DNA from: Rikenellaceae bacterium
Lineage (GTDB): Bacteria; Bacteroidota; Bacteroidia; Bacteroidales; UBA932
DNA: 64,000 nucleotides
Direction: 5' to 3'
NCBI GenBank assembly: GCA_022777205.1
Contig: JALFGP010000027.1
Coordinates: 1-64,000, forward strand
Of the stretch, positions 19,403-41,982 are shown piece after piece; positions within the stretch are counted from its first letter, which is position 1; the number at the start of each line of letters is the position of its first letter. The position numbers and the translations under genes were made by a program. The notes under the pieces were generated by a model. It ran no database searches. It was given only the letters and a program-made list of their open reading frames with translations, and was not told the DNA's origin.

Positions 19403-19404
19403 AT

Positions 19405-20039: not shown

Positions 20040-20235
20040 TGGCAAGACAAACCGAGATTGTCAATTGCAATTTATGATAGAAAATTCTTTGCGTTATTGC
20101 GAGTGTGGTAATTTGTAAGCTGCTGGTCTTGCGCTGCTTACAGAAGAATTTTCCGAAAATGTGGGAGGTTTCTAAGCCTCCTATCTTCGGACAGAAAAAC
20201 AAAGTATGAATCCTGTTTCCTTCATAACGCGGCAA
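20040..20235 (-). ncRNA. Candidate structured 5' leader/cis-RNA of the arg operon (or a structured intergenic repeat)
   Basis: Several inverted repeats: GAAAATTCTT 20080-20089 / AAGAATTTTC 20144-20153; GTAAGC 20115-20120 / GCTTAC 20136-20141 enclosed by it; CCGAA 20153-20157 + GGAGG 20164-20168 / CCTCC 20177-20181 + TTCGG 20186-20190; GACAA 20046-20050 / TTGTC 20058-20062. Confidence 0.45.
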
Positions 20236-20240
20236 AGATA
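20233..20240 (-). promoter_or_regulatory. Putative -7 box TATCTTTG for the arg operon
   Basis: Plus caaagata; would give a leader of roughly 245 nt before the GNAT gene. Confidence 0.35.
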
Positions 20241-20335
20241 ATAATTTTTCAAATTATCACCAACGCCGAATGTCACGAATTTGACTGATTTCAGCTTTTT
20301 GATTTCAGACTTCAAAGATATGAATTAAAAAATGT

Positions 20336-20343
20336 TATATTTG
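20336..20343 (+). promoter_or_regulatory. Putative -7 box TATATTTG for the HTCS gene
   Basis: Matches TAnnTTTG, 64 bp upstream of the HTCS start. Confidence 0.4.
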
Positions 20344-20406
20344 CAATTCCGACAAGGAATATGAAAATTATTTCCGGAATATTCTGACTCAGACACATAT
20401 TGAATT

Positions 20407-23400
20407 ATGCGATTGAACTTGACTTCCTTGTTTTTGACAGGTCTGCTTCTGGGACTGTCATACAACTTTACTGCAAGGGCTGTGGACTTGCCGGATTACG
20501 ATTTCCACACTATATCCAATACTACCTATTACGGTGGTATCCATGGAATTACGAAAGACCGTACAGGAAGAATCTGGTTCAGTGGCCATGAGGCTGTCTG
20601 CGTTTATGACGGGAAAACATTCGTGAGAATGGAGAAGGAGATAATGAAAATGTCCCCCTATGATTCGTGGAATTTCGGTGAGGTCAAGACTGCCGGAAAT
20701 GATTCCAGGCTTTTTGTTGGAAGTAATCACGGAATGATGGCATTGGATTATGACAGCATGTCTTTTGAATGTCTGTTTCCAGGTAACATCGGTCCTTTTG
20801 ATGTCAATGGGAAAGGGGAGGTATGGATGATAAGAGACGGAAGAGTGGAGATGTTCAATGCAAACGACTGCTCATCCGGCACATTTCTCCCGTCTTTTTC
20901 CCAGTTTCCATCATTTGTTTCGTCGGTTTTCTGTACGGAGAACGATGTTTATGTTTCAGTAGGGAATGTCCTGATGAAATACGATCCGGATAATTGCAGG
21001 TTTGACCGTTTCACCGTTGTCGGGGGGGGTAGAACAGAAATAAAGGATGTGCTGAGTTACGGGGAGGATGTATTTGTACTTACCTTGATGGATGGCTTGT
21101 TCAAATGCCGCCCGGACGGTACTGTTCTCCACTCCGGATTGGGCCGGATGGTTTCGGACAGTTCCACGAGTGCAAAAATGCTCTATGCCGATCCCTCAGG
21201 GGTCATCTGGGTGGCGACTCAGACAGGGCTCCTGCTGATGGATCCGGAGTCGGGAAAAACAAAGGTCTTCAAGATGGACCTGATGCGTCCGTATTCTCTT
21301 CCGAACAATTCCGTGTGGTCCATATTTCCTGATCCTGACGGCGGCTTGTGGATAGGCACATACGGAGGAAAACTGGCTTACAGCACGATTTCCTCCAGTG
21401 ATGTGAGGTTTTTCTCTGCCTGTGCCGGTGGTTTGTCCCACCCTATAGTGAGCAGTTTCGTCGAGGACCGTCACGGGAATTTATGGATTGGTACGGAAGG
21501 TGGTGGAATTTCTGTGTGGGACAGGTCTTCCGGTGAATTCAGGTATTTCACTCATTCTGACGGAAGCTCTCTTGCGTCTGATTTTATCAAGAAACTTTGG
21601 AAAGACGATGACGGTGTCATTTGGGTTGCGTCATTCAATGGCGGTCTGCAGGTCTATGAGGAAAAGACCCGGAAATTCAGGACAAAGGCTGGTTCTTCCT
21701 CCCAGTATACTTTGAGTGTATATGATTTTCTGGAGGATGGAGACGGTGGATTGTGGATGTCAAGTCCCGATGAGAATCTCAAGCATCTCGACGAAGAAGG
21801 GAAAGTGATGGCATCTGTCTTGTTCACCGATTCCGATGGACATCATTCCGGTACTTCCGCGGAGATGATATACCGTGATGATGAGGGGCATCTGTGCCTC
21901 CTTTCGCGTTCAGGCCTGATTGTGGCAGATGCTGCATCCGGAAGGGTCGTAAGATTCCATCATCTTGACGGTGTGCCCTTCCAGTCCAACAATTTAATCT
22001 GTTTCTGCCGCATGTCTTCAGGTGACATCTGGTTTGGAACAGGAGAGGGTGTTAATGTCCTGCGGAAAGACGGTGGTTACAGGCACCTGGTTGACTCTGT
22101 CGGGGAATCACTTTCAGGAAGGTTCGTTTTTGGCATTGTCGAAGATGAGTCTTCCGGTAATGTCTGGCTCAGTACGGACGATGGCCTTTATTTGTATTCA
22201 GGAGAAAAGGGACTGTTCTCCAGGTCAAGCATTGACAACAACGAAAACTGCGGGTCATATTATATAAGGTCATATTACAAGACCTCGCGCGGGGAGATTC
22301 TTTTCGGAGGTACTTCCGGATTTGTGATGTTCAATCCGTCAAGGATGGCATTCAATACACAGAAACCGCAAGTTTTCTTCACTGATTTTCTGATTGACAA
22401 CACCGTCTCCCTGCCCGGGACCAAAGATTCCCCTCTCAAGAAATCCGTCCTGACATATACTTCCGCTGAATATGATGATTGTCTCGTCTTGAACCACAGG
22501 CAAACCAATTTCGGGATACGGTTGTCTTCCGACAGCTATCTGAATGCAGAAAAGAACAGATACGCCTACAGGATGAAAGGATTATCCGATGATTGGATGG
22601 AACTGCCTGAGGGGCAAAGGATGGTCTCATTCTTCAATATGCGTCCGGGTAAATACCGGTTTGAGGCAAAGGCGGCAAATAATGATGGAATCTGGGGGGA
22701 CAAGGTGACATCGCTTCAGATAGAGGTCCGTCCGTCTCCATTCCTTTCAGTGTGGGCGTATTGCCTATATGCTTTGATAATCTCCCTTTCTGCATTTGCC
22801 ATTTGGAGGTTCTCAATGAACAAGAAGATACTGGAACAGAAACTGGAAATGGAAAGAGTGAATGAGGAAAACATCAGACAGATGACTCAGGCGAGAATCA
22901 ATTTCTTCACAAGCATATCCCACGACCTGAAGACTCCGCTTACACTCGTTGTGGATCCTCTGAAGCAGTTGAAGGAGCATCTGCCTCAGGAGTCTCCGGC
23001 AATCGCAGATGTGCGTCTGATAGAACAAAATGTCGTAAGAATCAAGAGGATGATTGTCCAGTTGCTTCAGTTCAGGGAGATTGAAAGCCAGAAGATTGTG
23101 CTGGACAGGCGGTCGGGAGACATTGTCCGCTTCATAAAAGATATATTTTCCCTTTTTGACAACATAGCGGCGAACAAGGAGATTGAGACGGAATTCCGTA
23201 GCGAGATGGAAAGTTTCTACACCATGTTCGATTACGATGTGATGGAGAAAATAGTCACCAATCTCATTTCCAATGCCTTTAAATACACTCCTCAGGGTTG
23301 TTTCGTCAGGATTGCCATATCAAGGCTTGGAAGTGTGGACACTTCAGGTCAGGAGTGGCTTTCAATTGTGGTCACCAACACGGGAACGGAGATTCCTGAT

Positions 23401-24456
23401 GATAAGAAGGAACTGATATTCAATGCATTCACCCGACTGCCCCATCAAGCGGACAAACTTATAGAGCATAGCACAGGGCTTGGGCTTGCCATTGTTAAGG
23501 AACTGGTGGACAATCTGGGAGGACAAATTTCCCTCACTTCCGAGAATTCAACCGTGTCTTTCGAAGTCCTGCTTCCATTTGTTCCTGACGGAGAATCAAA
23601 GAATGCCGGAGATGAGGGTGGTTATGAATATGCTGTTTCAGAGGCGGACAGCCTGCTTTCAGAAGCCTCTTATGAAGAATCGGTCAGAAAAGACTGCCGC
23701 AAGACACATTCCGTTGTCGTTGTGGAGGACGATGTAAATCTCAGAAACTATCTCGAAAAGAGACTTTCCGTCAAATATAATGTCTATACGGCGACCAATG
23801 GAAGCGACGGCATAGCCAAGACACTCAAGGTGAATCCTCAGCTGGTGGTCACGGACTTGATGATGCCGGATTCCGACGGGTTCGACGTGTGCCGTAAAAT
23901 CCGGCAGGACATCAGGACGAGCCACATACCGATCATAGTCCTTTCGGGAGCCGGAAATCAGGACGACAACAAGGTCAGGGCAATGGAGTGCGGTGCAAGC
24001 GTGTTCATTGACAAGCCTGTGGATATGGAATTCCTGATGAGGCAGGCTGACAACCTCATCGGGTCGTTGAGAAAACTCAGGGAGAAGTACAGCCGGAGGT
24101 TCATTGCCGAGCCATCGAAAGTGACCATATCCTCAATGGACGAGGAGATTCTAAAAAGGGCGATGGACCATATTGAAAGGAATATGGACAATTGTGACTA
24201 TGATGTTGATTCGTTCGTGTCAGATATGGCTATAGGACGGACAATCCTGTACCGGAAGATTAATGACCTGACAGGGATGTCCATAAAGGAGTTCATTCTT
24301 GATGTCCGGTTAAAGAGGGCGGCCCAGCTTCTGAAAGAGTCTGAGTACACCATATCTGAAATCGCCGATATGACCGGATTTGCAAATCCGAAATATTTCA
24401 GCATCTGCTTCCGTCGTCATTTTGATCTTTCTCCGAGCGAATTCAGGAAAGGTTGA
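20407..24456 (+). CDS. Hybrid two-component system (HTCS) regulator
   Basis: Periplasmic propeller repeats (GVIWVATQTGLLLMD, GNLWIGTEGGGISVW), Y_Y_Y region, histidine kinase (SISHDLKTPLTLVVDPL), receiver (LVVTDLMMPDSDGFDVC), C-terminal AraC HTH (ISEIADMTGFANPKYFSICFRRHFDLSPSEFR). Confidence 0.96.
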   Translation: MRLNLTSLFLTGLLLGLSYNFTARAVDLPDYDFHTISNTTYYGGIHGITKDRTGRIWFSGHEAVCVYDGKTFVRMEKEIMKMSPYDSWNFGEVKTAGNDSRLFVGSNHGMMALDYDSMSFECLFPGNIGPFDVNGKGEVWMIRDGRVEMFNANDCSSGTFLPSFSQFPSFVSSVFCTENDVYVSVGNVLMKYDPDNCRFDRFTVVGGGRTEIKDVLSYGEDVFVLTLMDGLFKCRPDGTVLHSGLGRMVSDSSTSAKMLYADPSGVIWVATQTGLLLMDPESGKTKVFKMDLMRPYSLPNNSVWSIFPDPDGGLWIGTYGGKLAYSTISSSDVRFFSACAGGLSHPIVSSFVEDRHGNLWIGTEGGGISVWDRSSGEFRYFTHSDGSSLASDFIKKLWKDDDGVIWVASFNGGLQVYEEKTRKFRTKAGSSSQYTLSVYDFLEDGDGGLWMSSPDENLKHLDEEGKVMASVLFTDSDGHHSGTSAEMIYRDDEGHLCLLSRSGLIVADAASGRVVRFHHLDGVPFQSNNLICFCRMSSGDIWFGTGEGVNVLRKDGGYRHLVDSVGESLSGRFVFGIVEDESSGNVWLSTDDGLYLYSGEKGLFSRSSIDNNENCGSYYIRSYYKTSRGEILFGGTSGFVMFNPSRMAFNTQKPQVFFTDFLIDNTVSLPGTKDSPLKKSVLTYTSAEYDDCLVLNHRQTNFGIRLSSDSYLNAEKNRYAYRMKGLSDDWMELPEGQRMVSFFNMRPGKYRFEAKAANNDGIWGDKVTSLQIEVRPSPFLSVWAYCLYALIISLSAFAIWRFSMNKKILEQKLEMERVNEENIRQMTQARINFFTSISHDLKTPLTLVVDPLKQLKEHLPQESPAIADVRLIEQNVVRIKRMIVQLLQFREIESQKIVLDRRSGDIVRFIKDIFSLFDNIAANKEIETEFRSEMESFYTMFDYDVMEKIVTNLISNAFKYTPQGCFVRIAISRLGSVDTSGQEWLSIVVTNTGTEIPDDKKELIFNAFTRLPHQADKLIEHSTGLGLAIVKELVDNLGGQISLTSENSTVSFEVLLPFVPDGESKNAGDEGGYEYAVSEADSLLSEASYEESVRKDCRKTHSVVVVEDDVNLRNYLEKRLSVKYNVYTATNGSDGIAKTLKVNPQLVVTDLMMPDSDGFDVCRKIRQDIRTSHIPIIVLSGAGNQDDNKVRAMECGASVFIDKPVDMEFLMRQADNLIGSLRKLREKYSRRFIAEPSKVTISSMDEEILKRAMDHIERNMDNCDYDVDSFVSDMAIGRTILYRKINDLTGMSIKEFILDVRLKRAAQLLKESEYTISEIADMTGFANPKYFSICFRRHFDLSPSEFRKG

Positions 24457-24608: not shown

Positions 24609-26210
24609 ATGGCATCAAATCGTTTAATCAAGGTCTTGTACCTTTTGTTCATTTTTTCATCAGTAATCTCCTGCGGAGAGAAAGCAGTCCCGGATGTGGA
24701 TAATCCGGGTATTACAGGAAAGAGCGTCACAGTGTCTCCGGACCGCACGAGTCTCTTCAGAAATCCGTTTTCAGGCTGGATGATTTACTCCGGAATGGGG
24801 AGCAACATCGACCAGGGAGGAAGTACTGAGGAAGCGAGATTCTGGCAGAGATATGACAACTTCCCGTCATCCATTGGTACTGTCAATGTTCCGAGGGATT
24901 ATGCTCCCATTCTCCTTATGCGCGTAATATGGTCTCAGGCAAACCCTGCACCGGGAGTCTATGTCTGGCAGGAAGACTGCAACACTCCGGAGGCCAAAAG
25001 GTTCAAGATGCTTGTGAACGGGGCAAAGGAAAGAAATATGCGTCTCGCCTTCAATTTCACCGCCGACAGCCAGGATAAACACGACCCGGCTTGTCCTGAA
25101 TATCTCAGGGAGAGAGGATGCAAGTATTTTGAAACCAAGACCGGCAGTGCCACTGTTTGGACTCCTTATCCGGACGATCCGGTCTTCCAACAGTGTTATG
25201 CGGAGTTTATCCACGATTTTGCAAAGGAGTTCAATGACCCTGACCTTATTGCATTCATCGGGGGCTTCGGCATCGGAAAATGGGGAGAGTACCACGCGTG
25301 CAGGTATTCCACAGGTGATGAAACTCCAAGAGAACAGGTGTTCGATTTTCTCGTTGACACATTTGTGAAGGAGTTCACGAAGATTCCTATTACCATCAAC
25401 GCACACAGATGGATTGGAACGGGAGTCCAGTGGAGGGATGATTTTGATCCGGATTCGGAAAGGCTGGTCCAGGGGGCCATTGCCAAGGGATTTTCCCTTC
25501 AGAGTGCGGCTTTCGGAATGCACCGTTATTTCTCCACCTGGGAGAAGGCGATGCTTTACAAGAATAGGTATTCAGTTCCGATTGCATCTGAGGGAGGATG
25601 GGTGAAAGCTTCTCATCCGGAGGCTCTTAAAACAGATGGCTACAAGGACTGGGGAGATGTCCGCAGGGGAGAATTCCTGGATGCCCAGGAGTCTTGCGTG
25701 AATACTCTTGATTTGCGTTACAATGAAAATATTGAAGCGAGCGAGGCATACGTCTGGTTCAATGAGGCTTACGAATATGTGGAGAAATTCATCCAGGAAG
25801 GCTGCTACAGAATCTATCCTGACAAACTCACTCTTCCGGAGACAATCCGAAACGGCGAGGATTTCAAGATTTCCCACCGCTGGATAAACCTCGGATGGTC
25901 TTATTGCCCGACCAACATCAAACAGTGGGAGGGACGCTACCACACCACTTTCGCCCTTTTGGACAAGAGGACATACAAGACCGTAGCATTTGTGTACGAT
26001 GACAATGCCAGACCGTCGGACTGGATAAAAGGTCAGCCGAGCAACTATACCCTCACGGCAAGATTCGAAGATGTCCCTCCCGGAGATTATTTCTGGGCGG
26101 TTGGCATCACGGACAGTTGGAATGACAACAAGCCGGGAATCTACATTGCCGCCAAGCAGAATGTAACCTCCAGCGGGTGGTTGAAACTCTTTTCTGTAAA
26201 AGTTGAATAA
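24609..26210 (+). CDS. DUF4832/DUF4874-type lipoprotein, TIM-barrel candidate glycosidase
   Basis: Lipobox FSSVISC; FRNPFSGWMIY; GGFGIGKWGEYH; ASEGGW; C-terminal HRWINLGWSYCPTNI beta-domain. Confidence 0.75.
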   Translation: MASNRLIKVLYLLFIFSSVISCGEKAVPDVDNPGITGKSVTVSPDRTSLFRNPFSGWMIYSGMGSNIDQGGSTEEARFWQRYDNFPSSIGTVNVPRDYAPILLMRVIWSQANPAPGVYVWQEDCNTPEAKRFKMLVNGAKERNMRLAFNFTADSQDKHDPACPEYLRERGCKYFETKTGSATVWTPYPDDPVFQQCYAEFIHDFAKEFNDPDLIAFIGGFGIGKWGEYHACRYSTGDETPREQVFDFLVDTFVKEFTKIPITINAHRWIGTGVQWRDDFDPDSERLVQGAIAKGFSLQSAAFGMHRYFSTWEKAMLYKNRYSVPIASEGGWVKASHPEALKTDGYKDWGDVRRGEFLDAQESCVNTLDLRYNENIEASEAYVWFNEAYEYVEKFIQEGCYRIYPDKLTLPETIRNGEDFKISHRWINLGWSYCPTNIKQWEGRYHTTFALLDKRTYKTVAFVYDDNARPSDWIKGQPSNYTLTARFEDVPPGDYFWAVGITDSWNDNKPGIYIAAKQNVTSSGWLKLFSVKVE

Positions 26211-26229
26211 CACTCTAATCTAAATAAAT

Positions 26230-29200
26230 ATGTTTTCAAGCAGAAACTCAAGTGTTTTGAGGCGCAGTCTGTTGGTGATTGTATCTTTCATCACAGGTCT
26301 GTCAGCCGTGTTTGCCCAGGACACTGCCGGTTTGAGAATAGTCGGTAATGTCACTGATGAGAAGGGGGAGCCTCTTGTGGGTGCCACCATCTATGCTAAG
26401 AACGACAAGAATGTCAATGCCATCACGGATCTTGACGGTAAGTACACCATCGTGGTCCCCGAAAAATGGACGGTATTGGTGTATAACTATGTCGGTTTCG
26501 TTACTAAAGAGGAGACGGTTGGAGACCGCAAGGTCATCAATGTCGAACTCGTGGAGGACATCGGACAACTGGACGATGCAGTCGTAGTCGCATACGGTAC
26601 CCAGAAGAAGGAGTCTGTCGTTGCTTCCATCACTACAATCGAGCCTCAGGCCCTCAAGGTCTCGACAACCCGATCTCTGACCAACAATCTTGCCGGTAAT
26701 GTGGCCGGTGTGCTTGCAATACAGCGTTCCGGAGAGCCGGGCTATGACAATTCAACATTCTGGATCCGTGGTATCTCCACTTTTCAGGGTGTAGGAGGTG
26801 ACCCTCTTGTCCTTGTCGATGGAATCGAAAGGAGCCTCGACACGATTGATGCAGAGGAAATAGCCTCTTTCTCAGTGTTGAAGGATGCTGCTGCAAGTGC
26901 AGTTTACGGTGTGCGTGGTGCCAACGGAGTAATCCTTATCAACACAAAGCGCGGACAGGCTGGAAAACCTAAAGTTACCATCAAGGCGGAGTTCGCCGGC
27001 ACCCAGCCTGTCCAACTTCCGAAGTACATCGGTGCAGCAGACTATATGCAGCTTCTGGACGATGTCCTCGTTGACACAGGCTCCCTCCCGATGTACACCG
27101 ACCAGATTGCAAAGACAAGGGCCGGGTACGACCCTGACCTGTATCCTGATGTAAACTGGATAAAAGCCATCTCGAAGGATTGGGCGAACAACCAGCGTGT
27201 TACTGCGGAAATCAGCGGAGGTAACGAAAGGGTCGTGTACTCGATTGTCTGCGCTTACTACAATGAGCGAGGAATCCTGACAAGGGACGCTACGAAGGAA
27301 TGGGACCCTTCAATCAAACTCCAGAGGTACAATGTCCGCTCCAATGTGGACATCAAAATCACCAATACCACAAAGCTCCGCATCAACATCGGAGGTTATC
27401 TCCAGGAGCGCAACTCCACTCCGGAGAGTGTGAGCGAGATTTTCAACAGGGCTTTCAGGGCGGTTCCTTTCAAATTCCCTGTCCAGTACTCGACCGGTGA
27501 GATTGCCGGAACAGAGGAGTCCAATGTCTGGGCAATGGCTACCCAAAGGGGTTACAACAGAACAACTGCCAGCAAAATCGAGACCCTTGTGACTCTCGAG
27601 CAGGATCTCAAATTCCTTACTGAAGGTCTCAAGGTGAGGGCATCGTTCTCATTTGACCGCTATGCTACGGGAACCGTGAGCCGTTCGACAAATCCTACCA
27701 TATACAATCCGGCATCAGGACGTAATGAGGACGGTTCGCTCATTCTCACTGTAAAGAACAACGGAAGCAACACCCTCGGACATTCCAATTCAGGAACATA
27801 CGGCAACAAGAGTGTGTACCTTGAAGCGGCTGTCACATACGACAGGACCTTCGACAAGAAGCACGCTGTTTCAGGCCTGCTCCTGTTCAACAGGAGAAAT
27901 TACGACAACGGAAGCAAACTCCCATACAGGAACCAGGGACTTGCCGGAAGGGCTTCCTATACTTTTGACAACCGCTATGTGGCAGAGTTCAACTTCGGTT
28001 ACAACGGTTCAGAGAACTTTGCTCCGGGAAAGAGATATGGTTTCTTCCCATCAGGGGCCATCGGATGGGTAATTTCCGAAGAACCGTTTATGGCCAGGGC
28101 TAAAAAGGTCCTCTCGAAACTCAAAGTCAGGGCTTCTTACGGACAGACAGGTAATGCATCTCTTGACGGGCGTCGATTTGCCTATCTCTCAACCATTACC
28201 GATGACTGGGCCACCCTCGGCGAATACCGTTGGGGATATGAGTCCAATTACAACAAGAACGGTATGGCTGAAGGTGACTTTGCTGTCCCTGACCTTACCT
28301 GGGAAAAAGTCAACAAGGCTGACGTCGGCTTTGAAGTCGGCCTCTTCGATGGGGTTGCCGACCTTCAGGTGGATTTCTTCGATGAAAGGCGAAACAATAT
28401 CTTTATGGAAAGAACATCCATCCCTCAGACAGCAGGTTTCATAAAATCCCCTTGGCAGAACTTCGGTAAAGTGAAGAATCAGGGTGTCGATCTCTCCCTC
28501 AATATCAGGAAGCAGTTCGGTCGTGACTTCTTTCTCAGTGTGATGGGAACCTTCACCTATGCTCACAACACAATCATCGAGATGGATGAACCTGCAGCCG
28601 TTATCGGAACCAACAGGGCTCAGACAGGACATCCTGTAGGACAGCTTTTTGGCTATGTTGCCGAGGGCCTTTACACATACGATGATTTTGTTGATGTCGA
28701 GACCGGAGAACTCCAGCCTTACCTTCCGCAGGTGACCCTTGTGTCAAAAGTACGGCCGGGTGACATCAAATACAAGGATGTCAACAAGGATGGTTTCATT
28801 GACGTTTACGACAAGTCTCCTATTGGAGGAACAAAGAATCCAGAGATGGTTTACGGATTTGGTTTCACTTTCTCTTGGAAGGACCTTGATATTTCAGCCC
28901 TTTTCCAGGGTGTCGGCAAGACTTGGAACATTCTTTCCGGAAACATCATCCCGGCATCCAACAAAGGAACGACCTACAATGTCTTCACCAACTACACCGA
29001 CCGTTGGACGGAAGAAAATCCGAGTCAGAATGTGTTCTATCCAAGACTGGACTACGGAGTGAATGCGAACAACAGCCAGGCTTCCACCTGGTGGCTCAAG
29101 GATATGAGTTTCCTCAGGCTCAAGAACATCGAAATCGGTTACTCCCTTCCTAAGAGATTCGCAGAGAAATCATTCATCTCCAGTGCGAGAGTTTATGTCC

Positions 29201-29322
29201 GGGGAACCAATCTGCTGACATTCTCGAAATTCAAACTTTGGGATCCTGAATTGTCATCAAATACCGGTGCTGCCTATCCGGTAATGAAATCAATCTCTGC
29301 AGGTCTTGAATTCAAATTCTAA
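26230..29322 (+). CDS. SusC-like TonB-dependent transporter
   Basis: Carboxypeptidase-like domain (IVGNVTDEKGEPLVGATIYAKN), plug (SVLKDAAASAVYGVRGANGVILINTKRG), C-terminal aromatic EFKF. Confidence 0.97.
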   Translation: MFSSRNSSVLRRSLLVIVSFITGLSAVFAQDTAGLRIVGNVTDEKGEPLVGATIYAKNDKNVNAITDLDGKYTIVVPEKWTVLVYNYVGFVTKEETVGDRKVINVELVEDIGQLDDAVVVAYGTQKKESVVASITTIEPQALKVSTTRSLTNNLAGNVAGVLAIQRSGEPGYDNSTFWIRGISTFQGVGGDPLVLVDGIERSLDTIDAEEIASFSVLKDAAASAVYGVRGANGVILINTKRGQAGKPKVTIKAEFAGTQPVQLPKYIGAADYMQLLDDVLVDTGSLPMYTDQIAKTRAGYDPDLYPDVNWIKAISKDWANNQRVTAEISGGNERVVYSIVCAYYNERGILTRDATKEWDPSIKLQRYNVRSNVDIKITNTTKLRINIGGYLQERNSTPESVSEIFNRAFRAVPFKFPVQYSTGEIAGTEESNVWAMATQRGYNRTTASKIETLVTLEQDLKFLTEGLKVRASFSFDRYATGTVSRSTNPTIYNPASGRNEDGSLILTVKNNGSNTLGHSNSGTYGNKSVYLEAAVTYDRTFDKKHAVSGLLLFNRRNYDNGSKLPYRNQGLAGRASYTFDNRYVAEFNFGYNGSENFAPGKRYGFFPSGAIGWVISEEPFMARAKKVLSKLKVRASYGQTGNASLDGRRFAYLSTITDDWATLGEYRWGYESNYNKNGMAEGDFAVPDLTWEKVNKADVGFEVGLFDGVADLQVDFFDERRNNIFMERTSIPQTAGFIKSPWQNFGKVKNQGVDLSLNIRKQFGRDFFLSVMGTFTYAHNTIIEMDEPAAVIGTNRAQTGHPVGQLFGYVAEGLYTYDDFVDVETGELQPYLPQVTLVSKVRPGDIKYKDVNKDGFIDVYDKSPIGGTKNPEMVYGFGFTFSWKDLDISALFQGVGKTWNILSGNIIPASNKGTTYNVFTNYTDRWTEENPSQNVFYPRLDYGVNANNSQASTWWLKDMSFLRLKNIEIGYSLPKRFAEKSFISSARVYVRGTNLLTFSKFKLWDPELSSNTGAAYPVMKSISAGLEFKF

Positions 29323-29335
29323 ATACAGTCTTGAA

Positions 29336-31282
29336 ATGAAAAACAACAAATTTATATACCTGATCGCAGGTCTTGTGGCAGTTTTCAGTGCTGTTTCCTG
29401 CGACTATCTCGACAAGCAGCCGGACGACCAATTGGACATCGAGACTGCATTCGAGAACAAGACAAACCTTGAGAGATGGCTGGCCTACATCTATAACGGC
29501 ATCCCTACCTTTTACCACTACGATGGTGCGATAGCCATTGCAGATGACCTTACCCCGCCTGTAGGCTGGGAGTCACAGGGTTTCAAGGCAATCCTGTATC
29601 AGAACGGAAACTTCACGCCTGCACAGGGAGGTATTATCAGCTACTGGAAAGAATTTTCAAAAAGGATTCGTTCTGCCTACATATTCATCGAGAATGCTCA
29701 TCCTCTCTTTGATGTTTCTGCAAAGGAAATCGAATGGATGAAGGCCGAGTGCCGTTTCTTCATCGGCTATTATCACGCGATGATGGTGATGACATACGGA
29801 GCGATTCCGATGATTACAGGTCCTGCCCAGGGCACGGATGCAGCTGATATGCAGCTCAAACAGGCCCCTTTCTATGAGGTGGTTGATTGGGTGGCACAGG
29901 AACTCAAGGATGCATCGGAAATCCTTCCTTCTTCCTACGAAGAGGCGAACAAGTACGGAAGGGCGACTTCCCTGATGTGTCTTGCCGTGCGTGCCCGTCT
30001 TCTGACATTCGCAGCCAGTCCGCTGGTGAACGGCAATCCTGATTTCGCAGGTTTCGTGAATTCTGACGGTACTCCGATTTTCTCTTCGGAATATGATCCG
30101 GAAAGGTGGAGAACTGCGGCTGATGCCAACTATGAGGTCCTTGAAGCAGCAAAGGAAAGTGGATATGAACTCTATGTCGAGAGGCTTGACAACGGTTCGG
30201 TTGACCCGTATATGTCATATATGAATGCCGTTCTGATGCGTTGGGACCAGGGCAACCACGAGGTTCTCTTCCCTAAGACATACGACAGCGGCGCATATTT
30301 CGACAGACAGTGCAACCCGCGCAGTATGGGTGGTGCAGGCGCAATCGGAGTGACCCAGAATCTTGTCGATGCCTTCTTTATGAACAATGGACTTGTTCCT
30401 ATCCTCGGGTATGACGGAAACGGCAATCCTGTAATCAATGCCAATTCCGGCTACACCGAGACCGGCTATTCTACTCAGGACTACAAAGACGACACGAAAT
30501 ATTTCTATGCTGAGCAGGGTGCTGTAGAAGGACAGAAGACCAATCACGTCATTACGACCGCAGGTACCTACAATATGTATTGCAACCGTGAACCTCGCTT
30601 CTACATTTCCGTGCTCTACAATGAGCAGTACCACTGGGGCAAGGACAAGCACAAATCCTCCAACAAATTCACCGACTTCTTCTCCGGTGGACAGGACGGA
30701 GGTCCGAGTCACGATTCTCCGACTGCCGGCTACCTCGTCAGAAAGATGGTCGATCCGTCAGCCATCCCTTCTGACGGTTCTGGAAAATTCAAGACCCGTC
30801 ACGGAGCAATCTACCGTCTTGCTGAGGCATATCTTTCATACGCGGAATGTCTGTTTGAGTACAGTGTCGCAAGGGGAACCCTCGGAGCCAACAAGAACGA
30901 GATATTTACATATATCAACAAAATCAGGGAGAGGGCAGGCATTCCTCTCTACGGTAACGGTGTTGACGGGGACGGAGTTGCGATGATTCCGCTTTCGGAC
31001 AATGAGAACGAACTGCGTGATCTGATTCACAGGGAGAGAAGGGTCGAATTGAATTGTGAGGCAGGAAGCCGCTTCGATGACCTCCGTCGTTGGAAAGAGG
31101 CAGCAGATGTCCTTAACGGGCCTTTCTATGGAATGGATTCCCGTGCTACCAAAGCAAACAGGGATGAATATTACAAAAGAACCCAGTACCAGACCCGCCG
31201 TTTCATCAGCTATTGGTGGCCGATTCCTCAGGATGACATTGACAAGAACCTCAATCTCCGTCAGGTGCCGGGTTGGAGATAG
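29336..31282 (+). CDS. SusD/RagB-like glycan-binding lipoprotein
   Basis: AVSCDYLDKQPDDQ lipobox; C-terminal IHRERRVELNCEAGSRFDDLRRWK. Confidence 0.96.
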   Translation: MKNNKFIYLIAGLVAVFSAVSCDYLDKQPDDQLDIETAFENKTNLERWLAYIYNGIPTFYHYDGAIAIADDLTPPVGWESQGFKAILYQNGNFTPAQGGIISYWKEFSKRIRSAYIFIENAHPLFDVSAKEIEWMKAECRFFIGYYHAMMVMTYGAIPMITGPAQGTDAADMQLKQAPFYEVVDWVAQELKDASEILPSSYEEANKYGRATSLMCLAVRARLLTFAASPLVNGNPDFAGFVNSDGTPIFSSEYDPERWRTAADANYEVLEAAKESGYELYVERLDNGSVDPYMSYMNAVLMRWDQGNHEVLFPKTYDSGAYFDRQCNPRSMGGAGAIGVTQNLVDAFFMNNGLVPILGYDGNGNPVINANSGYTETGYSTQDYKDDTKYFYAEQGAVEGQKTNHVITTAGTYNMYCNREPRFYISVLYNEQYHWGKDKHKSSNKFTDFFSGGQDGGPSHDSPTAGYLVRKMVDPSAIPSDGSGKFKTRHGAIYRLAEAYLSYAECLFEYSVARGTLGANKNEIFTYINKIRERAGIPLYGNGVDGDGVAMIPLSDNENELRDLIHRERRVELNCEAGSRFDDLRRWKEAADVLNGPFYGMDSRATKANRDEYYKRTQYQTRRFISYWWPIPQDDIDKNLNLRQVPGWR

Positions 31283-31309
31283 TAAATGGACAATTTGATT
31301 TTATTTAAT

Positions 31310-32668
31310 ATGAAACACGGATATATTTTGGGTTTTACGGCAGGTCTGCTTTCACTTGCTGCCTGCAACAAGGGAGGCTTCCCCGGACCGGACAGAAGTT
31401 TGTATGACGTTGTAGAGACAATGACTCTCGAAGCTTCATCCACCGAGATTGTACTTGATGCCGAGGCGCTGGATGAGGTCGCCCTGACACTGAACTGGAC
31501 TCCTGCAAGGGAGATGTCCGATGACTATATAGTCACTTATGTGACCTACCTCGACATTGAGGGTAACGACTTTAGCAATGCCGTCCGTCAGGTTGAGGAT
31601 GACGGGGTGTTCTGCAAGGAATACACTACCAGCCAGCTTCAGACCCTCCTTACGGAGAAATGGAACAAGAATTACTCACGCGCGGTGAGTATGGAGTTCA
31701 AGGTCATCGCTAAATGGGACGGCGGTGAGAAATATGTTATGCCAGAGGTCAGGACAACAAGTTTCAGCGTCCGTCCGTACCGTCCTCTCACTTTTGATGC
31801 CGACAGGATCTATCTGTCGGGAGATGCCGTGACCGGAACGACCAAAAAGGCAATCGGCAAGACGCCGGAGAATGAATACATCTATGCCGAGGAACTTTAT
31901 CTCAAACCTGGAAAGCTTACTATTCCAATTGAATATCAGGGGATAACCTCATACATTTGTCCTGAAGAGGGTGATGTTGACATTCCTGATGCTGACCAGG
32001 TCGACGGGAAACCTGCAGGAACAAAGGCTTATCCTGCAACTGTCAAGGAACTGAAGGAGGGAGTTGAACTTCCTGCTTGGAATGTTCCGTCAGAGGGTTA
32101 CTGGAGAGTAATCATTGACATTGAGAACAAGACAGTCAAGTTCTTCTCTCCGAAGAACAGGCTTGAGCCTTTGAAAGTCGAGTTCGCATACGAGGGCAGG
32201 GACCCTGCATACTGGATTCTCACAAAGACTCTTCTTGCCGGCAATTACTACATCAACTCAATGACAGGTTGGGATAGCTGGAAAGGAAAAGCCTATCCGT
32301 TCCAGGCATCGAAGGTGGATCCGCAGATCATTTTCTGGCAGGGATCAACGTTCACAATGACCGATGGCTTCTGTATCAAGCTCGCCCAGGGACCTGCCGA
32401 GGTGGATAACATCCGTCAGGGAGAAGGTACGACCGGGAACGACCCTAACAAGGACGGTGCAGGAATGACCTTCATCTCCAAAGTTATGGCATTTGTGCCT
32501 GCTGAACAACCGGGAGTCCCTGTGACAGCCGACATTGAACTCAAGATGGGAGAATGGATCCCGACAGCGACCGCCGTTTCCAACAGAAAATGGAAACCTG
32601 CTGCAGGAGGAGTAAGGCTCAGCAGGATAACCATTGATGCAAGAAACAATCTTATTCGTTTTGACTGA
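31310..32668 (+). CDS. SusE/SusF-like outer-membrane glycan-binding lipoprotein
   Basis: Lipobox SLAAC; SusE-like N-terminal domain (LTLNWTPAREMSDDYIVTYVTYLD...); C-terminal WDSWKGKAYPFQASKVDPQIIFWQG; follows SusD. Confidence 0.8.
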   Translation: MKHGYILGFTAGLLSLAACNKGGFPGPDRSLYDVVETMTLEASSTEIVLDAEALDEVALTLNWTPAREMSDDYIVTYVTYLDIEGNDFSNAVRQVEDDGVFCKEYTTSQLQTLLTEKWNKNYSRAVSMEFKVIAKWDGGEKYVMPEVRTTSFSVRPYRPLTFDADRIYLSGDAVTGTTKKAIGKTPENEYIYAEELYLKPGKLTIPIEYQGITSYICPEEGDVDIPDADQVDGKPAGTKAYPATVKELKEGVELPAWNVPSEGYWRVIIDIENKTVKFFSPKNRLEPLKVEFAYEGRDPAYWILTKTLLAGNYYINSMTGWDSWKGKAYPFQASKVDPQIIFWQGSTFTMTDGFCIKLAQGPAEVDNIRQGEGTTGNDPNKDGAGMTFISKVMAFVPAEQPGVPVTADIELKMGEWIPTATAVSNRKWKPAAGGVRLSRITIDARNNLIRFD

Positions 32669-32674
32669 TAGATT

Positions 32675-34261
32675 ATGCGATATACAGTAAAAAACAGTAT
32701 CCTTTTGGTTGCGGCGGTAATCGTTTCCGCCTGCGCCTGCGCGAAAGAACCGGGTTCCCAGAATACTGGGAACCCCGGGGAAATCGCAGGCAATACCACT
32801 GTGAAAATCACTGCCGACAAGACATCAGTCCTGCGGAACCCTCTGACGGGGTGGGTGATGTATGTCTCCGGTACAGCCGATCCTTCTTATTTTGACACGA
32901 AAGTCAGTGTCCCGGATCTTGGCAAGGAAGTCTATGTCAGGGATTATGCTTCTGCCTGCTACATCAGGACCGGATGGAAGAATCTGAATCCTTCGAAAGG
33001 TAAATATGCGTGGGAAGATCCTTCCAGCAGCATTTACAAATTGGTGAAAAGGGCTGAAGAGCTTGGACTGCCAATTGCGTTCCGCGTCGTTGTGGACGGA
33101 AGGGACCAGAGGGAAAACACTCCGCAGTTCGTATTTGATGACGGAGCCGAATACTGGCTTTCGGACAGCAAATTTCCGGACAGAAAGACTCCTTTGGCAA
33201 TCGATCCGATCTGGAGAAAGCACTATGAGACTTTTGTAAAGGCATTTGCTGAATATTTCAATGATCCGAAGAAAACAGCATTCATTGATGCTTATGGCCT
33301 TGGAAAATGGGGTGAAGGACACAATGTCTGCTATGAGCAGAACAATGCCATCACCTCGAAGACTTCCGAGTACAAGGCTGAGACAATGCGCTGGATTACG
33401 AAACTCTATGCGGACAATTTCACAAAAGTTCCTCTCGTGATAAATTATCACCGTCAGATAGGACATCCTATCAGTGAGGGTAAGAACCCGCAGCCGGACA
33501 GCGAAACCGTCCTTCAGATAGCAATCGACAACGGCTACTGTCTGCGTGCAGATTCATTCGGAATGAACAACCAGGATTGGGGCTATAATGACTGGGAGAA
33601 GGCTTATGTCCAGAAATGGCTGTACAAACTGCCTGTCCTTATGGAGGGAGGTTGGATCGTTTCCAGCCATTCTTACTGGAATGACCCTGCCGGTTATAGG
33701 AAAGGCCATCCTGAAGATGTCCGCAAGGGAGAATTCGATTCCTCAATGGAGGCACACGTGAATATGATGGACTTCCGTGTCGGGGATGAGACGAAGAGCT
33801 GGTTCGAGAATGCCTACGAATACGTTGAGCGCTTCATCTCGGAAGGCGGTTACAGGCTCTATCCGACTCAGGTCTCTTTCCCGACCAAGGCGAAATTTGG
33901 AGACAAAGTCACCATTGCCCACAGTTGGGCCAATCTGGGATGGGGCTTCTGTCCTGTGAATCTCCCGCAGTGGAACTACAAATTCAGGGTTGCAGTCGCT
34001 CTTCTTGACAGCAACGACAATCCTGTCAAGATTTTCGTGGATGAGCAGACTGATCTGTCGCAGTGGCTCAAGGGCAATATCACTTCCTACAAGACCGAAG
34101 TGGAGATGAAGGGAGTGGCTGTCGGAGGCTATTCCTGGGCAGTTGGCATAGTTGACACCACACGTGACAATGAAATAGGAATCCGTCTTGCAGCAGCATC
34201 GAAGTACCAGACTGAATCCGGTTGGGTACGTGTCGGGACGGTTTCAGTTTCAGCAAGATAA
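32675..34261 (+). CDS. Second DUF4832-type TIM-barrel lipoprotein, paralog of 24609-26210
   Basis: RNPLTGWVMYVSG; DAYGLGKWGEGH; VLMEGGW; HSWANLGWGFCPVNLPQWNYKFRVAVALLD. Confidence 0.75.
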   Translation: MRYTVKNSILLVAAVIVSACACAKEPGSQNTGNPGEIAGNTTVKITADKTSVLRNPLTGWVMYVSGTADPSYFDTKVSVPDLGKEVYVRDYASACYIRTGWKNLNPSKGKYAWEDPSSSIYKLVKRAEELGLPIAFRVVVDGRDQRENTPQFVFDDGAEYWLSDSKFPDRKTPLAIDPIWRKHYETFVKAFAEYFNDPKKTAFIDAYGLGKWGEGHNVCYEQNNAITSKTSEYKAETMRWITKLYADNFTKVPLVINYHRQIGHPISEGKNPQPDSETVLQIAIDNGYCLRADSFGMNNQDWGYNDWEKAYVQKWLYKLPVLMEGGWIVSSHSYWNDPAGYRKGHPEDVRKGEFDSSMEAHVNMMDFRVGDETKSWFENAYEYVERFISEGGYRLYPTQVSFPTKAKFGDKVTIAHSWANLGWGFCPVNLPQWNYKFRVAVALLDSNDNPVKIFVDEQTDLSQWLKGNITSYKTEVEMKGVAVGGYSWAVGIVDTTRDNEIGIRLAAASKYQTESGWVRVGTVSVSAR

Positions 34262-34292: not shown

Positions 34293-36383
34293 ATGAAAAA
34301 GAATTTCGTAAGATTCGCTTCGGCGATTGCCATCCTTTCTCTCGGAGTGGCCTGTACGGACCTCTCCGGTGTGGAGGAAAGAATTGAGACCCTTGAGACC
34401 CAGATGGCCGCAATGGCAAATCAGCTCAATGCATTCAATGCAAATATAAGGGCACTTGAGGACTTTACCCAGTCGGGACAGACTGTAAAGGACATTGTCA
34501 AGAACGGGAATGTCTATACCATTACCCTTGGAAACGGTACTGTACACAACATAACAATTGAGAATGGACCTGTACAACTCAATGTCTCAATTGATTCAGA
34601 AGGCTACTGGACAATCGACGGAAGCCGCATCAAGGATGCGAGCGGCAATCCTGTGAAGGCCCTGGGCGAGAAAGGCGACAAGGGTGAGAACGGTTCCAAC
34701 GGACAGGACGGAGCCAACGGAAAGGATGGAAAGACTCCGATCTTCGGCGTTGATTCAGAAGGTTACTGGACCATCAAATATTCAGAGACCGAAACTCCTG
34801 CAAGGGTGACCGACGAGAACGGAAATCCTGTCAAGGCTGTCGGTTCATCATCTTCCACAGGTGAACCTTCCACAGGAAGCTGCCTGTTCAAGAGTGTTTC
34901 CGTTGAGAACGGATACCTTGTGATTGTTCTCAATTCAACTCCTGACCAGACCTACAGACTCCCGATTGAGGCTGGTTTCCGCATTTCAGTGAGCAAGGAT
35001 TTCATCGCAGTACTGCCGGGACAGAGCGTTGACGTACCTTTCGAGGTGATTGGGAAAGATGCCACAACTCACGTTTTCGTTGAAGCTCAGGGTTACACTG
35101 CAACTCTCGGGGATGGCGTGGTTACTGTCACTGCTCCCGATCCGCTTCCTGAAACAGGTTACCTCATCATCAAGGCCATCAGGAATTCCGATTCTTCTAC
35201 AAAGGCCGTTTATCTCACTTTCGAGAGTGGGGAACTTACTTTTGTGTATGATGCAAAAACCGTCCTCAGCGAAGGTGGCAAAGTCACAATCCCCGTCAGC
35301 GCAAACGTTGACTACACTGTGAATATTCCTGAAACCGCTGCTTCCTGGATTCATCTTGCCGGATCGACAAAGGCTCTTGTTTCGTCAACAATCGAACTCA
35401 TCATCGACGGGAACACCGGTGAGCAGCGTGCTGCAACTGTCAGCATAGTTCCGTCACTTGGAGAGACGAAAAACATTCAGATTGTTCAGGCAGGTGCCGG
35501 CGAGGCAGTCTTCAATCAGGTTGACCTTGCAACCGTAGCATCATTCTCTCTTTCAGGAACTTCTCTTGATGCTCCAGCTGCCCTTGCACAGACAGTTGAG
35601 AATAAGGATGTGTTCGCATTCTATTCTACCTTGAAAGCCGGTAAACTCTATGTCGAGATGTTCGATGCCGAGAGCAAATCCCTCGGTTCCATCATCCCTG
35701 CATCCGGAACAGACATCAATGCCGGCAATGCTTCAGAATTCAAACAGGATTTTGTCGGCAACGGCGCCTGGGAGATTCCTGCAGAAGGAACCTACCGTGT
35801 TGTTCTCAACCGTGCGGCAAAGACAATCTCATTTTACGATGAAGCTACCGATTTGCAGCCTTTGACAGTGAAATTCGCTTATGAGAACGGTACATCGTGG
35901 TACCTCACCAAGACCCTTGTTCCTGGTACTTTCTATGTCAGCACCAACAGCGGATGGGACAGCTGGAAAGGCAGAAAATACACTTTCCTGGCTTCAGCGG
36001 CAGACCCTCAGGTGTTCTACTGGGAAGGCGAGTGCGCCATCGACGGAGATGGGGATCCGAAGCAGGTCAGCTTCAAGATTGCTCAGAGCAAGGCCGACGT
36101 TGATTTGATTGAGGCCGGTACTGGAACAGGTGGTGCAGATCCTAACACCCAGTCAGGAATGAACTTCATTTCGAAATCATACGCATTTGCTCCGGCAGAT
36201 GCTGATGGAACTGCACTTTCAACTGACGCAGAACTGATTGTGAATGAGTGGTTGCCTTGCGCAGGTGCAGTCAGCAACAAGAGGTGGGTTCTTGCAAAGG
36301 GCTCGAAAGTCAATGTCATCCGGTTCATAATCGACGCGAGGAATATGAGAGTCCGCTTTGATGTTGAAGAAACAGCTGAATAA
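34293..36383 (+). CDS. SusF-position surface lipoprotein: DUF4988-like repeats, collagen-like tract, BACON-like domain, SusE/F C-terminal module
   Basis: SLGVAC lipobox; coiled-coil N-terminus; VSIDSEGYWTIDG / GVDSEGYWTIKY; GEKGDKGENGSNGQDGANGKDG; WDSWKGRKYTFLASAADPQVFYWEGE. Confidence 0.72.
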   Translation: MKKNFVRFASAIAILSLGVACTDLSGVEERIETLETQMAAMANQLNAFNANIRALEDFTQSGQTVKDIVKNGNVYTITLGNGTVHNITIENGPVQLNVSIDSEGYWTIDGSRIKDASGNPVKALGEKGDKGENGSNGQDGANGKDGKTPIFGVDSEGYWTIKYSETETPARVTDENGNPVKAVGSSSSTGEPSTGSCLFKSVSVENGYLVIVLNSTPDQTYRLPIEAGFRISVSKDFIAVLPGQSVDVPFEVIGKDATTHVFVEAQGYTATLGDGVVTVTAPDPLPETGYLIIKAIRNSDSSTKAVYLTFESGELTFVYDAKTVLSEGGKVTIPVSANVDYTVNIPETAASWIHLAGSTKALVSSTIELIIDGNTGEQRAATVSIVPSLGETKNIQIVQAGAGEAVFNQVDLATVASFSLSGTSLDAPAALAQTVENKDVFAFYSTLKAGKLYVEMFDAESKSLGSIIPASGTDINAGNASEFKQDFVGNGAWEIPAEGTYRVVLNRAAKTISFYDEATDLQPLTVKFAYENGTSWYLTKTLVPGTFYVSTNSGWDSWKGRKYTFLASAADPQVFYWEGECAIDGDGDPKQVSFKIAQSKADVDLIEAGTGTGGADPNTQSGMNFISKSYAFAPADADGTALSTDAELIVNEWLPCAGAVSNKRWVLAKGSKVNVIRFIIDARNMRVRFDVEETAE
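34665..34733 (+). repeat. Short collagen-like G-X-Y tract in the SusF-position lipoprotein
   Basis: GEKGDKGENGSNGQDGANGKDGK. Confidence 0.8.
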
Positions 36384-37537
36384 TGACTGGAAAAAATATA
36401 TTAAAATCCTTGGCACAGGCGTTGCTTGCATTCATTCTTATGTTTGCATCCGGCACAGCCTGTGCCAAGATTGATCCCTACAGGGGACTTTCTCTTGAAC
36501 TGTCCGAAGTCTCTGAAAACCTGACTGTAGGACAGACAGCCCGAATTGAGGCCGAAGTCAGGGGCGACAATGCCTCTTCTGTAAAAACGACAATCAAATG
36601 GCAGTCCCTCAATCCGACTGTCCTTTCTCTCAATTCAGAAGGAAACACCGCGACCGTAAAGGCCCTCAAGGGCGGTGTCGCTTCCATTCGAGTTTCCGTC
36701 GCTGAATGCGAAAATCTCAACCAAAAACTGACCTTCAAAATCAAGGAGGAAGGCGACGGAATTCTCCGCATCCTGGCAATAGGAAACAGCTTCTCCCAGG
36801 ATGCCGTGGAGCAGTATCTCTATGAACTGTTTGCAACCAGCGGACAGAAGGTAATCATCGGAAACCTCTACATAGGAGGATGCAGCCTTGAGAAGCACTA
36901 CAACAACATTATGGGTGACAAGGCTGCATACGAATACAGAAAGGTGGTCAATGGCCAGAAGACCAATCTCTCGGGCGTGAAGATTTCAACGGTGCTGGAG
37001 GAGGAACCGTGGGATTATGTGAGCATCCAGCAGGTAAGCGGCCTTTCGGGGCAGTACGAGACCTGCACACCTTATCTCCCGGAAATATTGAACTATGTCC
37101 GTTCACATTCGAAATTCGACGTGAAACTCATCTGGCATTCCACCTGGGCATACTCCAAGGACTCGACCCACGGTGATTTTCCGAAATACAACAAGGACCA
37201 GATGACGATGTACAATGCGATTGTCGAAGTAGGGCAGAAAGTTATGGCTAATACATCATATTCTTTCGACCTTCTGGTTCCTTCCGGTACGGCAATCCAG
37301 AATGGAAGAACCTCGTCTCTGGGTGACACCTTCAACAGGGACGGTTATCATCTGGAGGTCAATTACGGAAGATACACCGCCGCCTGCACCTGGTTCGAGG
37401 CAATTTCAGGCAAGAATGTAGAAGATGTGTCATACGCTCCTTCAACTGTAAGCGAGGCCAATGCACGGATTGCCCGTGCAGCCGCCCACAGGGCAGTTGC
37501 CTCACCTTATTCAGTAACTGAGCTGACGGGATTCTGA
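36383..37537 (+). CDS. Ig-like plus DUF4886-type SGNH hydrolase-fold lipoprotein
   Basis: ILAIGNSFSQDAVEQYL, WDYVSIQQVSGLSG, DGYHLEVNYGRYTAACTWFEAI. Confidence 0.75.
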   Translation: MTGKNILKSLAQALLAFILMFASGTACAKIDPYRGLSLELSEVSENLTVGQTARIEAEVRGDNASSVKTTIKWQSLNPTVLSLNSEGNTATVKALKGGVASIRVSVAECENLNQKLTFKIKEEGDGILRILAIGNSFSQDAVEQYLYELFATSGQKVIIGNLYIGGCSLEKHYNNIMGDKAAYEYRKVVNGQKTNLSGVKISTVLEEEPWDYVSIQQVSGLSGQYETCTPYLPEILNYVRSHSKFDVKLIWHSTWAYSKDSTHGDFPKYNKDQMTMYNAIVEVGQKVMANTSYSFDLLVPSGTAIQNGRTSSLGDTFNRDGYHLEVNYGRYTAACTWFEAISGKNVEDVSYAPSTVSEANARIARAAAHRAVASPYSVTELTGF

Positions 37538-37600
37538 CATTGATGAAACTCAAACCTGAATTTTGTCGTCCTCAAGCATACTAAAAAATTGAATACATAT

Positions 37601-40600
37601 ATGAAATTTATTCATCTATTTACAGGAATATTCTTGATTTTCTCAATAACCGCCTCTGCCCAACACCGGCTCACCCCTGAGGACGAGGCGCGTGCGAAGG
37701 AACTGGTCAGCAGGATGACCATTGAGGAGAAAATCGATTATATCGGTGGACTGAAGTCATTTTATATCAGGGCAATCCCACGGTTGGGAATACCTCAGAT
37801 CAGGATGGCGGACGGTCCTTGCGGTGTGAGGAACAACACCAAAAGCACCCTGTACCCGTGCGGTATATGCTCGGCGGCATCCTGGAACCGTGATGCGGTT
37901 GAGGCTCTTGGGCACGGACTGGGGGCTGACGCGAAGGCAAGGGGTGTTGACATAATGCTCGGTCCGGGGGTGAACATCTACCGTTCGCCTTTGTGCGGCA
38001 GGAATTATGAATATTTCGGTGAAGACCCTTACCTTGCTTCGGAAGTGGCGAAGCACTATATCCTCGGAATGCAGGATGAGGGAGTGATGGCGACAGTCAA
38101 GCATTTTGCCGCCAACAACCAGGAATATGCCCGCCACACCGTCAGTTCCGATGTCGATGAAAGGACTTTGAATGAAATATATTTCCCTGCATTCCGCAAG
38201 GCGGTCCACGAGGCAGGCGTCGGTGCGGTGATGGACAGTTACAATCCGGTGAACGGGGTTCACGCGACTGAGAATGCCTGGATGAACATTGATGTCCTCC
38301 GCAATCAGTGGGGTTTCAAGGGAATATTGATGTCCGACTGGACTTCTACCTATTCCACTGTCGGAATTGCAAACGGAGGGCTTGACCTTGAGATGCCGAA
38401 GGGAGTCTTTTTTACACAGGAAAGGCTCAAGGCTGCCATTGAAAACGGGACTGTCAGAGAGGAGGACATCGACTTGAAAGTTCAGCACATCCTCCAGACA
38501 CTCATTTCATTCGGGATGCTGGATGCGCAGAAACCCGAAGTGAACGATCTCGATGAAAGGCAGGAATCCCGGGATGCAGCCCTTCAGGTTGCCAGGGAAG
38601 GCATCGTGCTTTTGAAAAATGAAGGCAGTCTTCCAATGGCCAAAAGGGGAAAGATTCTTGTCATGGGCCCGAATGCCGACCGCATTGCGACAGGAGGCGG
38701 AAGCGGGTTTGTGACTCCGATTTCTTCTGTTTCAGTGTATCAGGGACTTGTTGATGCAAAGGGTGCGAAGAATGTGAAACTTCTCTCGGAAGACATGCTC
38801 TACAAGGACATATATTCCGAAATATTTACTGATGAGACATTCTCTGCCCGGGGCTTCAAGGCGGCATATTACCCCAACAAGAAGTTCGAGGGCGAGCCTG
38901 TGATGGAAAGGATTGACGGTAGGATTGACTTCCATTGGAAATATTCATCCCCTTGCGAAGGACTTCCTGATGACGGTTTCTGTGCCCGATGGGAAGGTGT
39001 TTACAAGCCTGCCCAGGACGGGACCCTGCGTTTCAGAATGAGCGGGGACGACGGCTACAGGATTATCGTGAACGGGAAACAAATCGGCGGCGACTGGGGC
39101 AACCATTCGCTTTCCTCAAAATCCGCCTTTATGGATGTGAAGGCAGGACAGACCTATAATTTCCGTTTTGAGTATTTTGAGAATGTCGGGGAGGCGACGG
39201 TCATTCTTGAGGCCGGGATGATGGACAGCGCGATGATGTATGCTGCCTTGAAGAATGCGACGGCAGTCGTCTATTGCGCCGGTTTCGACAGCGACATTGA
39301 AGGAGAGGGATTCGACAGGGGATTCGCCCTTCCGCAAGACCAGAGGCGTGTTATCGGGATGCTCTCCGAAGCCCATCCGAATGTAAATGTGGTGCTGAAT
39401 GCAGGCGGGGCAGTTGATTTCAGAGGCTGGTCCGAGGATGTGGAGTCCGTCCTTTTGGCCTGGTATCCGGGACAGGAAGGCGGAACGGCCGTTGCGGACA
39501 TTCTGACGGGAAAGATTTCTCCGAGCGGGAAACTTCCGATTTCAATGGAAAATGACTGGAACGACAATCCTGTCCGGAACAGCTACTACGAGAATGCAAA
39601 GCAGCAGAAGCACGTGGAGTACACAGAAGGTATTTTTGTCGGCTACAGGGGATATGACCGCAGCGGCAAGACTCCGCGCTATCCTTTCGGCTACGGCCTT
39701 TCATACTCTTCATTCGGCTACTCGGATTTGAAGGTGGAAGTCCTTCCTGACGGGAATGTGAAGGTCGGAGTGACTCTCACCAACACGGGAAAGATGGATG
39801 CCGCTGAAGTGGTCCAGGTCTATGTCAAGGACTGCGAGGCTTCTGTAGTGCGCCCGGAAAAGGAACTCAAGGGCTTCAGCAAGATTTTCCTGCGAAAGGG
39901 TGAAACCGCGACAGTTTCGCTCCTCCTGAAACCGGAAGACTTTGCATTCTACGATGTTGACATTAAGGATTTCAGGGTTGAGCCGGGCGAGTTCGTCATC
40001 TATGCCGGAGGCTCTTCCGCTGATCTGCCTCTGTCGGAAAGGATTTCATATTCATATAATTGCAGGGAAGTGTCTGAACCTGCCGCCGTGGCAGAGGGGA
40101 CTGTTCCTTTTATGACGAACATATATGGAAGGAAACATACGTCCCTGAACGGAAAATGGAACGCCTTCACTGACCTCTACGACCAGGGACGGAAAATGGA
40201 GGTTTACAAGAACCGCAAGCCACAGGACGGGACACAGTTCTTTGAATATTCATTCGAGGGCGGAATGCGTCTGGATGTCCCCGGGGACTGGAACTCCCAA
40301 TCTCCGGAGTTGAAATACTACGAAGGGACGATGTGGTACGCCCGCCATTTTGATGCTCCTGCGGTTTCGGAGCGCGACTTTCTTTACTTCGGGGCCGTCA
40401 GCTATAGGTGCAGGGTCTATCTCAACGGGGAATTCATTGCGGAGCACGAAGGTGGTTTCACTCCTTTCCAGGTTGAGGTGACTGGGAAACTGAAGGAGAA
40501 AGACAATTTCCTCTGCATCGAGGTGAGCAACCGCCGTACTCCTGACGCGATACCGGCAATGAATTTCGATTGGTGGAATTACGGCGGAATCACCCGGGAT

Positions 40601-41972: not shown

Positions 41973-41982
41973 TTTTGTTGCT

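Follow-up and report, generated by a model that had tools for sequence, protein, structure and literature searches.

A pair of DUF4832-related proteins, probably glycoside hydrolases, serving one polysaccharide utilisation locus in a Rikenellaceae bacterium

Introduction

Two secreted paralogs placed on either side of a SusC/SusD/SusE system raise the question of what such a pair contributes to glycan uptake and, if the proteins are enzymes, by which mechanism they act. A sequence-only reading had proposed that they are glycosidases with two catalytic glutamates, an idea that we find mostly right. P0001 and P0002 are probably exported lipoprotein glycoside hydrolases that form a fixed A/B pair serving one SusC/D polysaccharide utilisation locus (PUL), with a pair of glutamates as the catalytic residues.

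Results and discussion

The two paralogs and their locus

Within the window, by which we mean the whole 64,000-nucleotide stretch of DNA analysed, a SusC/SusD pair, a regulator and clustered CAZymes occur together, as in Bacteroidota PULs:

20407-24456, + strand: hybrid two-component regulator (Reg_prop, Y_Y_Y, HisKA, HATPase, receiver and AraC-type HTH), probable PUL regulator
24609-26210, + strand: paralog A (P0001), 533 aa, intact open reading frame
26230-29322, + strand: SusC-like TonB-dependent transporter, clustering with the SusC of 57 other loci
29306-31282, + strand: SusD-like surface glycan-binding protein
31286-32668, + strand: SusE outer-membrane protein (Pfam SusE)
32675-34261, + strand: paralog B (P0002), 528 aa, intact open reading frame
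34293-36383, + strand: DUF4988/BACON protein, probable surface glycan-binding protein, clustering with SusE/F
36383-37537, + strand: DUF4886 protein, whose relatives adjoin the pair in other loci
37589-41833, + strand: GH3 (with PA14) and GH2 in a single 1414-aa protein
44869-48729, + strand: FAD-dependent oxidoreductase and melibiase-like GH in a single 1286-aa protein
48747-50099, + strand: GDSL/SGNH esterase-type protein
50113-52332, + strand: GH3 enzyme
52380-54929, + strand: GH2 enzyme with DUF4982 and Glyco_hydro2_C5

The two exported paralogs proposed earlier do flank SusCD/SusE, both as intact frames, and the three motifs that had been named in them, with their residue numbers and a glutamate spacing of roughly 100-110 residues, all proved correct on direct reading. 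P0001 carries R51-N-P-F-S-G-W57, G221-I-G-K-W-G-E227 and E328-G-G-W, and P0002 carries R54-N-P-L-T-G-W60, G208-L-G-K-W-G-E214 and E324-G-G-W, the motif glutamates lying 101 and 110 residues apart, respectively. The proteins are paralogs with 34% identity over their full length (E 5e-102). The 2.39-Mb assembly contains no third full-length copy; one further marginal partial match of 17 bits lies elsewhere in it. Judged by eye, both N-termini resemble lipoprotein signals with a final S/A-C. In P0001 the signal is followed by a predicted TIM-type barrel at about residues 56-370 and a C-terminal beta-domain at 402-532; P0002 has the same predicted architecture, with a weak DUF4832 match at residues 361-503.

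Family membership and distribution

The description of the pair as DUF4832-type holds when profiles are compared with those of genuine DUF4832 proteins (hhalign, 99.9% probability over 423 columns), and only then. Under Pfam itself neither protein is assigned: P0002 reaches 24.9 bits for DUF4832, below the cut-off of 29.2, and P0001 gives no Pfam match at E 0.01. A weak DUF4832 match was found in 63 of 72 aligned homologs, which together with the profile homology indicates that the subfamily belongs to the DUF4832 superfamily as a divergent branch, the superfamily being taken in the broad sense of full-length homology with a conserved W-G-E and second Glu. The likeness to DUF4832 (PF16116)/DUF4874 extends to the N-P-x-x-G start and the C-terminal beta-domain. 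The window proteins differ in having G-K-W-G-E-x-H and E-G-G-W where DUF4832 has A-W-G-E-W and G-G-E-T, and in the subfamily-specific H266, E355, D368 and R370. Since the pair falls under the Pfam thresholds, it probably goes unannotated.

We scanned one genome per species across 84,980 species. A relative was encoded in 209 stretches; we kept 80 of these, which make up 74 loci. Relatives occur in Bacteroidota (Bacteroides, Segatella/Prevotella, Dysgonomonas, Pedobacter, Niabella and Mucilaginibacter) and in Actinomycetota (Streptomyces and Curtobacterium). This PUL enzyme pair is widespread, from human gut Bacteroides through rumen and caecal Bacteroidales to plant-associated Actinomycetota. 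The superfamily has another, distant branch, which keeps W-G-E and the second Glu and is found in loci L022, L023-L030 and L032 from the same family of genomes; its members likewise occur in neighbouring pairs, and several have a twin-arginine-like signal (MKRRDFIK) rather than a lipoprotein signal.

Membership in established glycosidase families finds little expression at the sequence level. GH35 (PF01301) is touched by 1 of the 72 homologs (best E 0.059) and GH42 (PF02449) by 2 (best E 0.011), and no match to GH14 (PF01373) was listed among the 72 or in the organism's own genome. No significant match came from searching PDB sequences, whether the query was one of the proteins, a family profile or a motif profile. 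The profiles could not be aligned to GH35 (3.8% probability), and their alignment to GH42 reached 88% (hhalign), covering strands 2-3 only.

Conservation of the glutamate pair

E227 and E328 (P0001 numbering) are glutamate in all 115 homologs from Bacteroidota and Actinomycetota, and the equivalents E214 and E324 are invariant in 68/68 sequences of the alignment led by P0002. The residue preceding E227/E214 is likewise Gly in 115/115. Invariant across the 115 members are E227, E328, E355, D368, H229, H266 and R370. When the profile is aligned with that of bona fide DUF4832 proteins, E227 and E328 fall on E167 and E269 of L041, which are the only invariant glutamates of those proteins, and a second distant homolog set gives the same pairing, with E186 and E282. 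E355, D368 and H266, although invariant in the subfamily, are kept in neither canonical DUF4832 proteins nor the second distant set. That only E227 and E328 among the invariant acidic residues survive both comparisons is the strongest evidence for the pair originally chosen, and this conservation supports a catalytic role as expected of a catalytic pair, short of proof of catalysis.

The same observation bears on whether the proteins might be surface glycan-binding proteins that use a glycosidase fold without catalysis, as their position among SusD/E/F binding proteins and their C-terminal beta-domain would allow. Binding-only descendants of enzymes have usually lost one catalytic residue, whereas both candidate residues are kept in every one of the 115 members and in canonical DUF4832 proteins, and we consider a purely binding role very improbable. 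A glycoside hydrolase identity is well supported, and the two named, conserved residues offer a direct mutational target.

Predicted fold and candidate mechanisms

AlphaFold2 models built from alignments of 72 rows (P0001) and 68 rows (P0002), with mean pLDDT of 91.8 and 93.9, each contain an eight-stranded TIM-type barrel followed by a C-terminal beta-domain, and bear out the earlier proposal of a TIM-barrel-like fold with glutamates on strands 4 and 7. Strand 4 spans residues 214-218 and strand 7 residues 325-329 in the P0001 model (201-205 and 321-325 in P0002), placing E227/E214 about nine residues past strand 4 and E328/E324 at strand 7. The structural comparison with clan GH-A that had been suggested, made here by Foldseek searches of the PDB with the predicted models, ranks clan GH-A enzymes (GH35, GH5) first. 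GH35 8faa is the first match for both proteins (E 4e-10 and 1e-9), followed among the top ranks by endoglycoceramidase (GH5), GH157 and GH30 for P0001 and by GH14 beta-amylase, mannanase and GH10 for P0002. TM-scores to the best matches are 0.3-0.4 over the full two-domain protein with an rmsd of about 14 A; the match is thus to the barrel and not to the whole protein, and the domain arrangement differs.

The earlier assignment to clan GH-A retaining enzymes holds as far as the barrel, the position of the two glutamates and the Foldseek ranks are concerned; the retaining mechanism is not established. The predicted models have the (beta/alpha)8 barrel with Glu after strands 4 and 7 that GH35, GH42 and GH5 share, but they lack the Asn-Glu at the end of strand 4, where the loop instead reads G-x-G-x-x-G-E, and sequence similarity to the clan is almost nil. 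If the pair were nevertheless retaining members of clan GH-A with a beta-linked (equatorial) glycan as substrate, E227 would be the acid/base and E328 the nucleophile, some 5.5 A apart. The GH-A top ranks, the weak sequence matches to GH42 and GH35 with the partial GH42 profile alignment, the E-G-G-W on strand 7 and the partner GH3 and GH2 enzymes of the locus, families that act on beta-linkages, speak for this mechanistic sub-case; the displaced strand-4 Glu speaks against it, and we place it slightly short of an even chance.

The G-K-W-G-E part of the G-x-G-x-x-G-E loop resembles the acid motif of GH14 beta-amylases, G-x-[SA]-G-E, and beta-amylases 1ven and 1veo are Foldseek matches 2 and 4 of P0002. 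GH14 beta-amylases are inverting. The missing Asn-Glu, the form of the acid loop and the beta-amylase fold match make an inverting mechanism plausible, in which E227 would act as acid and E328 as general base, possibly on alpha-1,4-linked aminosugar or uronate-containing chains. Against this, no beta-amylase appears in the Foldseek top 50 for P0001, the motif profile search of the PDB finds none, and there is no match to GH14 at the sequence level. A GH14 search of 396 Bacteroidota genomes gave marginal fragments only, none with the GH14 motif. GH14 is an exo-alpha-1,4-glucanase, whereas no starch enzyme is seen in the window's PUL. We regard GH14-like inverting chemistry as possible but rather doubtful.

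A characterised distant relative, recently found to act on a biofilm polysaccharide, bears on both sub-cases. SIR_1591 of Streptococcus intermedius, a DUF4832 protein of the pel operon, disrupts Pel-dependent aggregates and is independently described as similar to beta-amylases and beta-galactosidases (PMC12345266). The aggregates consist of a polymer rich in GalNAc and are broken up by other alpha-1,4-GalNAc-ases as well (PMC12345266), which favours GH14-like chemistry and tells against retaining action on a beta-linked glycan; the cited passages of PMC12345266 report neither a catalytic mutant nor a product analysis for SIR_1591. SIR_1591 is a membrane-anchored Gram-positive protein from an exopolysaccharide synthesis operon (PMC12345266), in contrast to the lipoprotein pair of a Sus-type uptake locus. 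The earlier statement that no assigned activity was known for the family is therefore outdated at the level of the superfamily (PMC12345266): the window pair is a new branch of a superfamily that already has a reported glycosidase, rather than an activity-free family. For members of the subfamily itself, we found no measured activity in the literature. Setting the pair beside SIR_1591 could reveal whether a single fold supports both alpha- and beta-acting enzymes, or both inverting and retaining ones.

An ancient pair

The homologs divide into clades A and B (FastTree, midpoint root, support 100 for the split), and 33 of 36 two-copy loci, which are phylogenetically non-independent, contain one member of each. 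Some loci, that of the window among them, have the copies on either side of SusCDE; in the others they stand in tandem after SusE. Recent tandem duplication is rejected as the origin of the pair, the two clades being well supported and common to several genera. On this phylogenetic evidence the pair is ancient, and its retention together suggests two complementary enzymes, which may differ in specificity.

Gene context and candidate substrate

SusC, SusD and SusE/F are present in most homolog loci. Around the pair, GH88/105-like proteins (35/67 homolog loci against 1/20 control SusD regions), GH3 (36/67 against 4/20), FAD oxidoreductase (24/67 against 1/20), melibiase-like GH (20/67 against 0/20), DUF4886 (26/67 against 0/20) and CE15-type esterase (19/67 against 0/20) are more frequent than in the controls, a contrast inflated both by taking the probes from the homolog loci themselves and by the make-up of the 20 control regions, which are from the same order and in many cases from only two genomes. 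The enrichment includes GH2 and uronate-related enzymes. Curtobacterium members adjoin a heparinase II/III-like protein, an ABC sugar transporter and LacI-type genes. From this gene context we infer an acylated, uronate-containing heteropolysaccharide as substrate; GH88/105 is absent from the window's own PUL, and for the Rikenellaceae organism the inference is therefore weak.

In the mechanism that we propose, each protein would combine a TIM-type catalytic barrel with a C-terminal DUF4832-like beta-domain that is probably carbohydrate-binding. The general acid would be the glutamate in the G-x-G-K-W-G-E loop that follows strand 4 (E227/E214), and the E-G-G-W glutamate closing strand 7 (E328/E324) would be either the nucleophile or the general base. 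At the cell surface or in the periplasm, the A/B pair may carry out the early cleavage of an acylated heteropolysaccharide that probably contains uronate; SusC/D would import the fragments, and the GH3, GH2 and melibiase-like plus oxidoreductase enzymes would finish them. In a fuller version, an unassigned DUF4832-related glycosidase family would need two partners in every locus, one from each ancient paralog clade. The partners would break different linkages in one and the same uronate-containing polysaccharide, with a GH-A-like barrel supporting inverting chemistry of the beta-amylase type; this version is unlikely to hold in all its parts. Once known, the substrate of the pair would give a function to a recurring 'unknown' type of PUL.

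Several minor features of the locus complete the description. The GH3 (with PA14) and GH2 parts of the 37589-41833 protein are separate genes in most other loci, and the oxidoreductase/melibiase-like fusion (44869-48729) corresponds to two adjoining genes in B. xylanisolvens (L089:17787-19652 and 19582-21615) and others, a natural fusion suggesting joint action on the same sugar. Between these, 41908-44862 encodes a 984-aa exported protein with repeats resembling a right-handed beta-helix, with no Pfam match and no relative among the 74 homolog loci. SusE (31286-32668) and the DUF4988/BACON protein (34293-36383) have a similar C-terminal region (LTKTL...GWDSWKG), so that the surface binding proteins are duplicated too, like the DUF4832-like enzymes. 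An arginine-biosynthesis operon, read from the sequence as argB-, carbamoyltransferase-, argD-, argC- and argG-like frames, adjoins the PUL at 14317-19980 on the minus strand.
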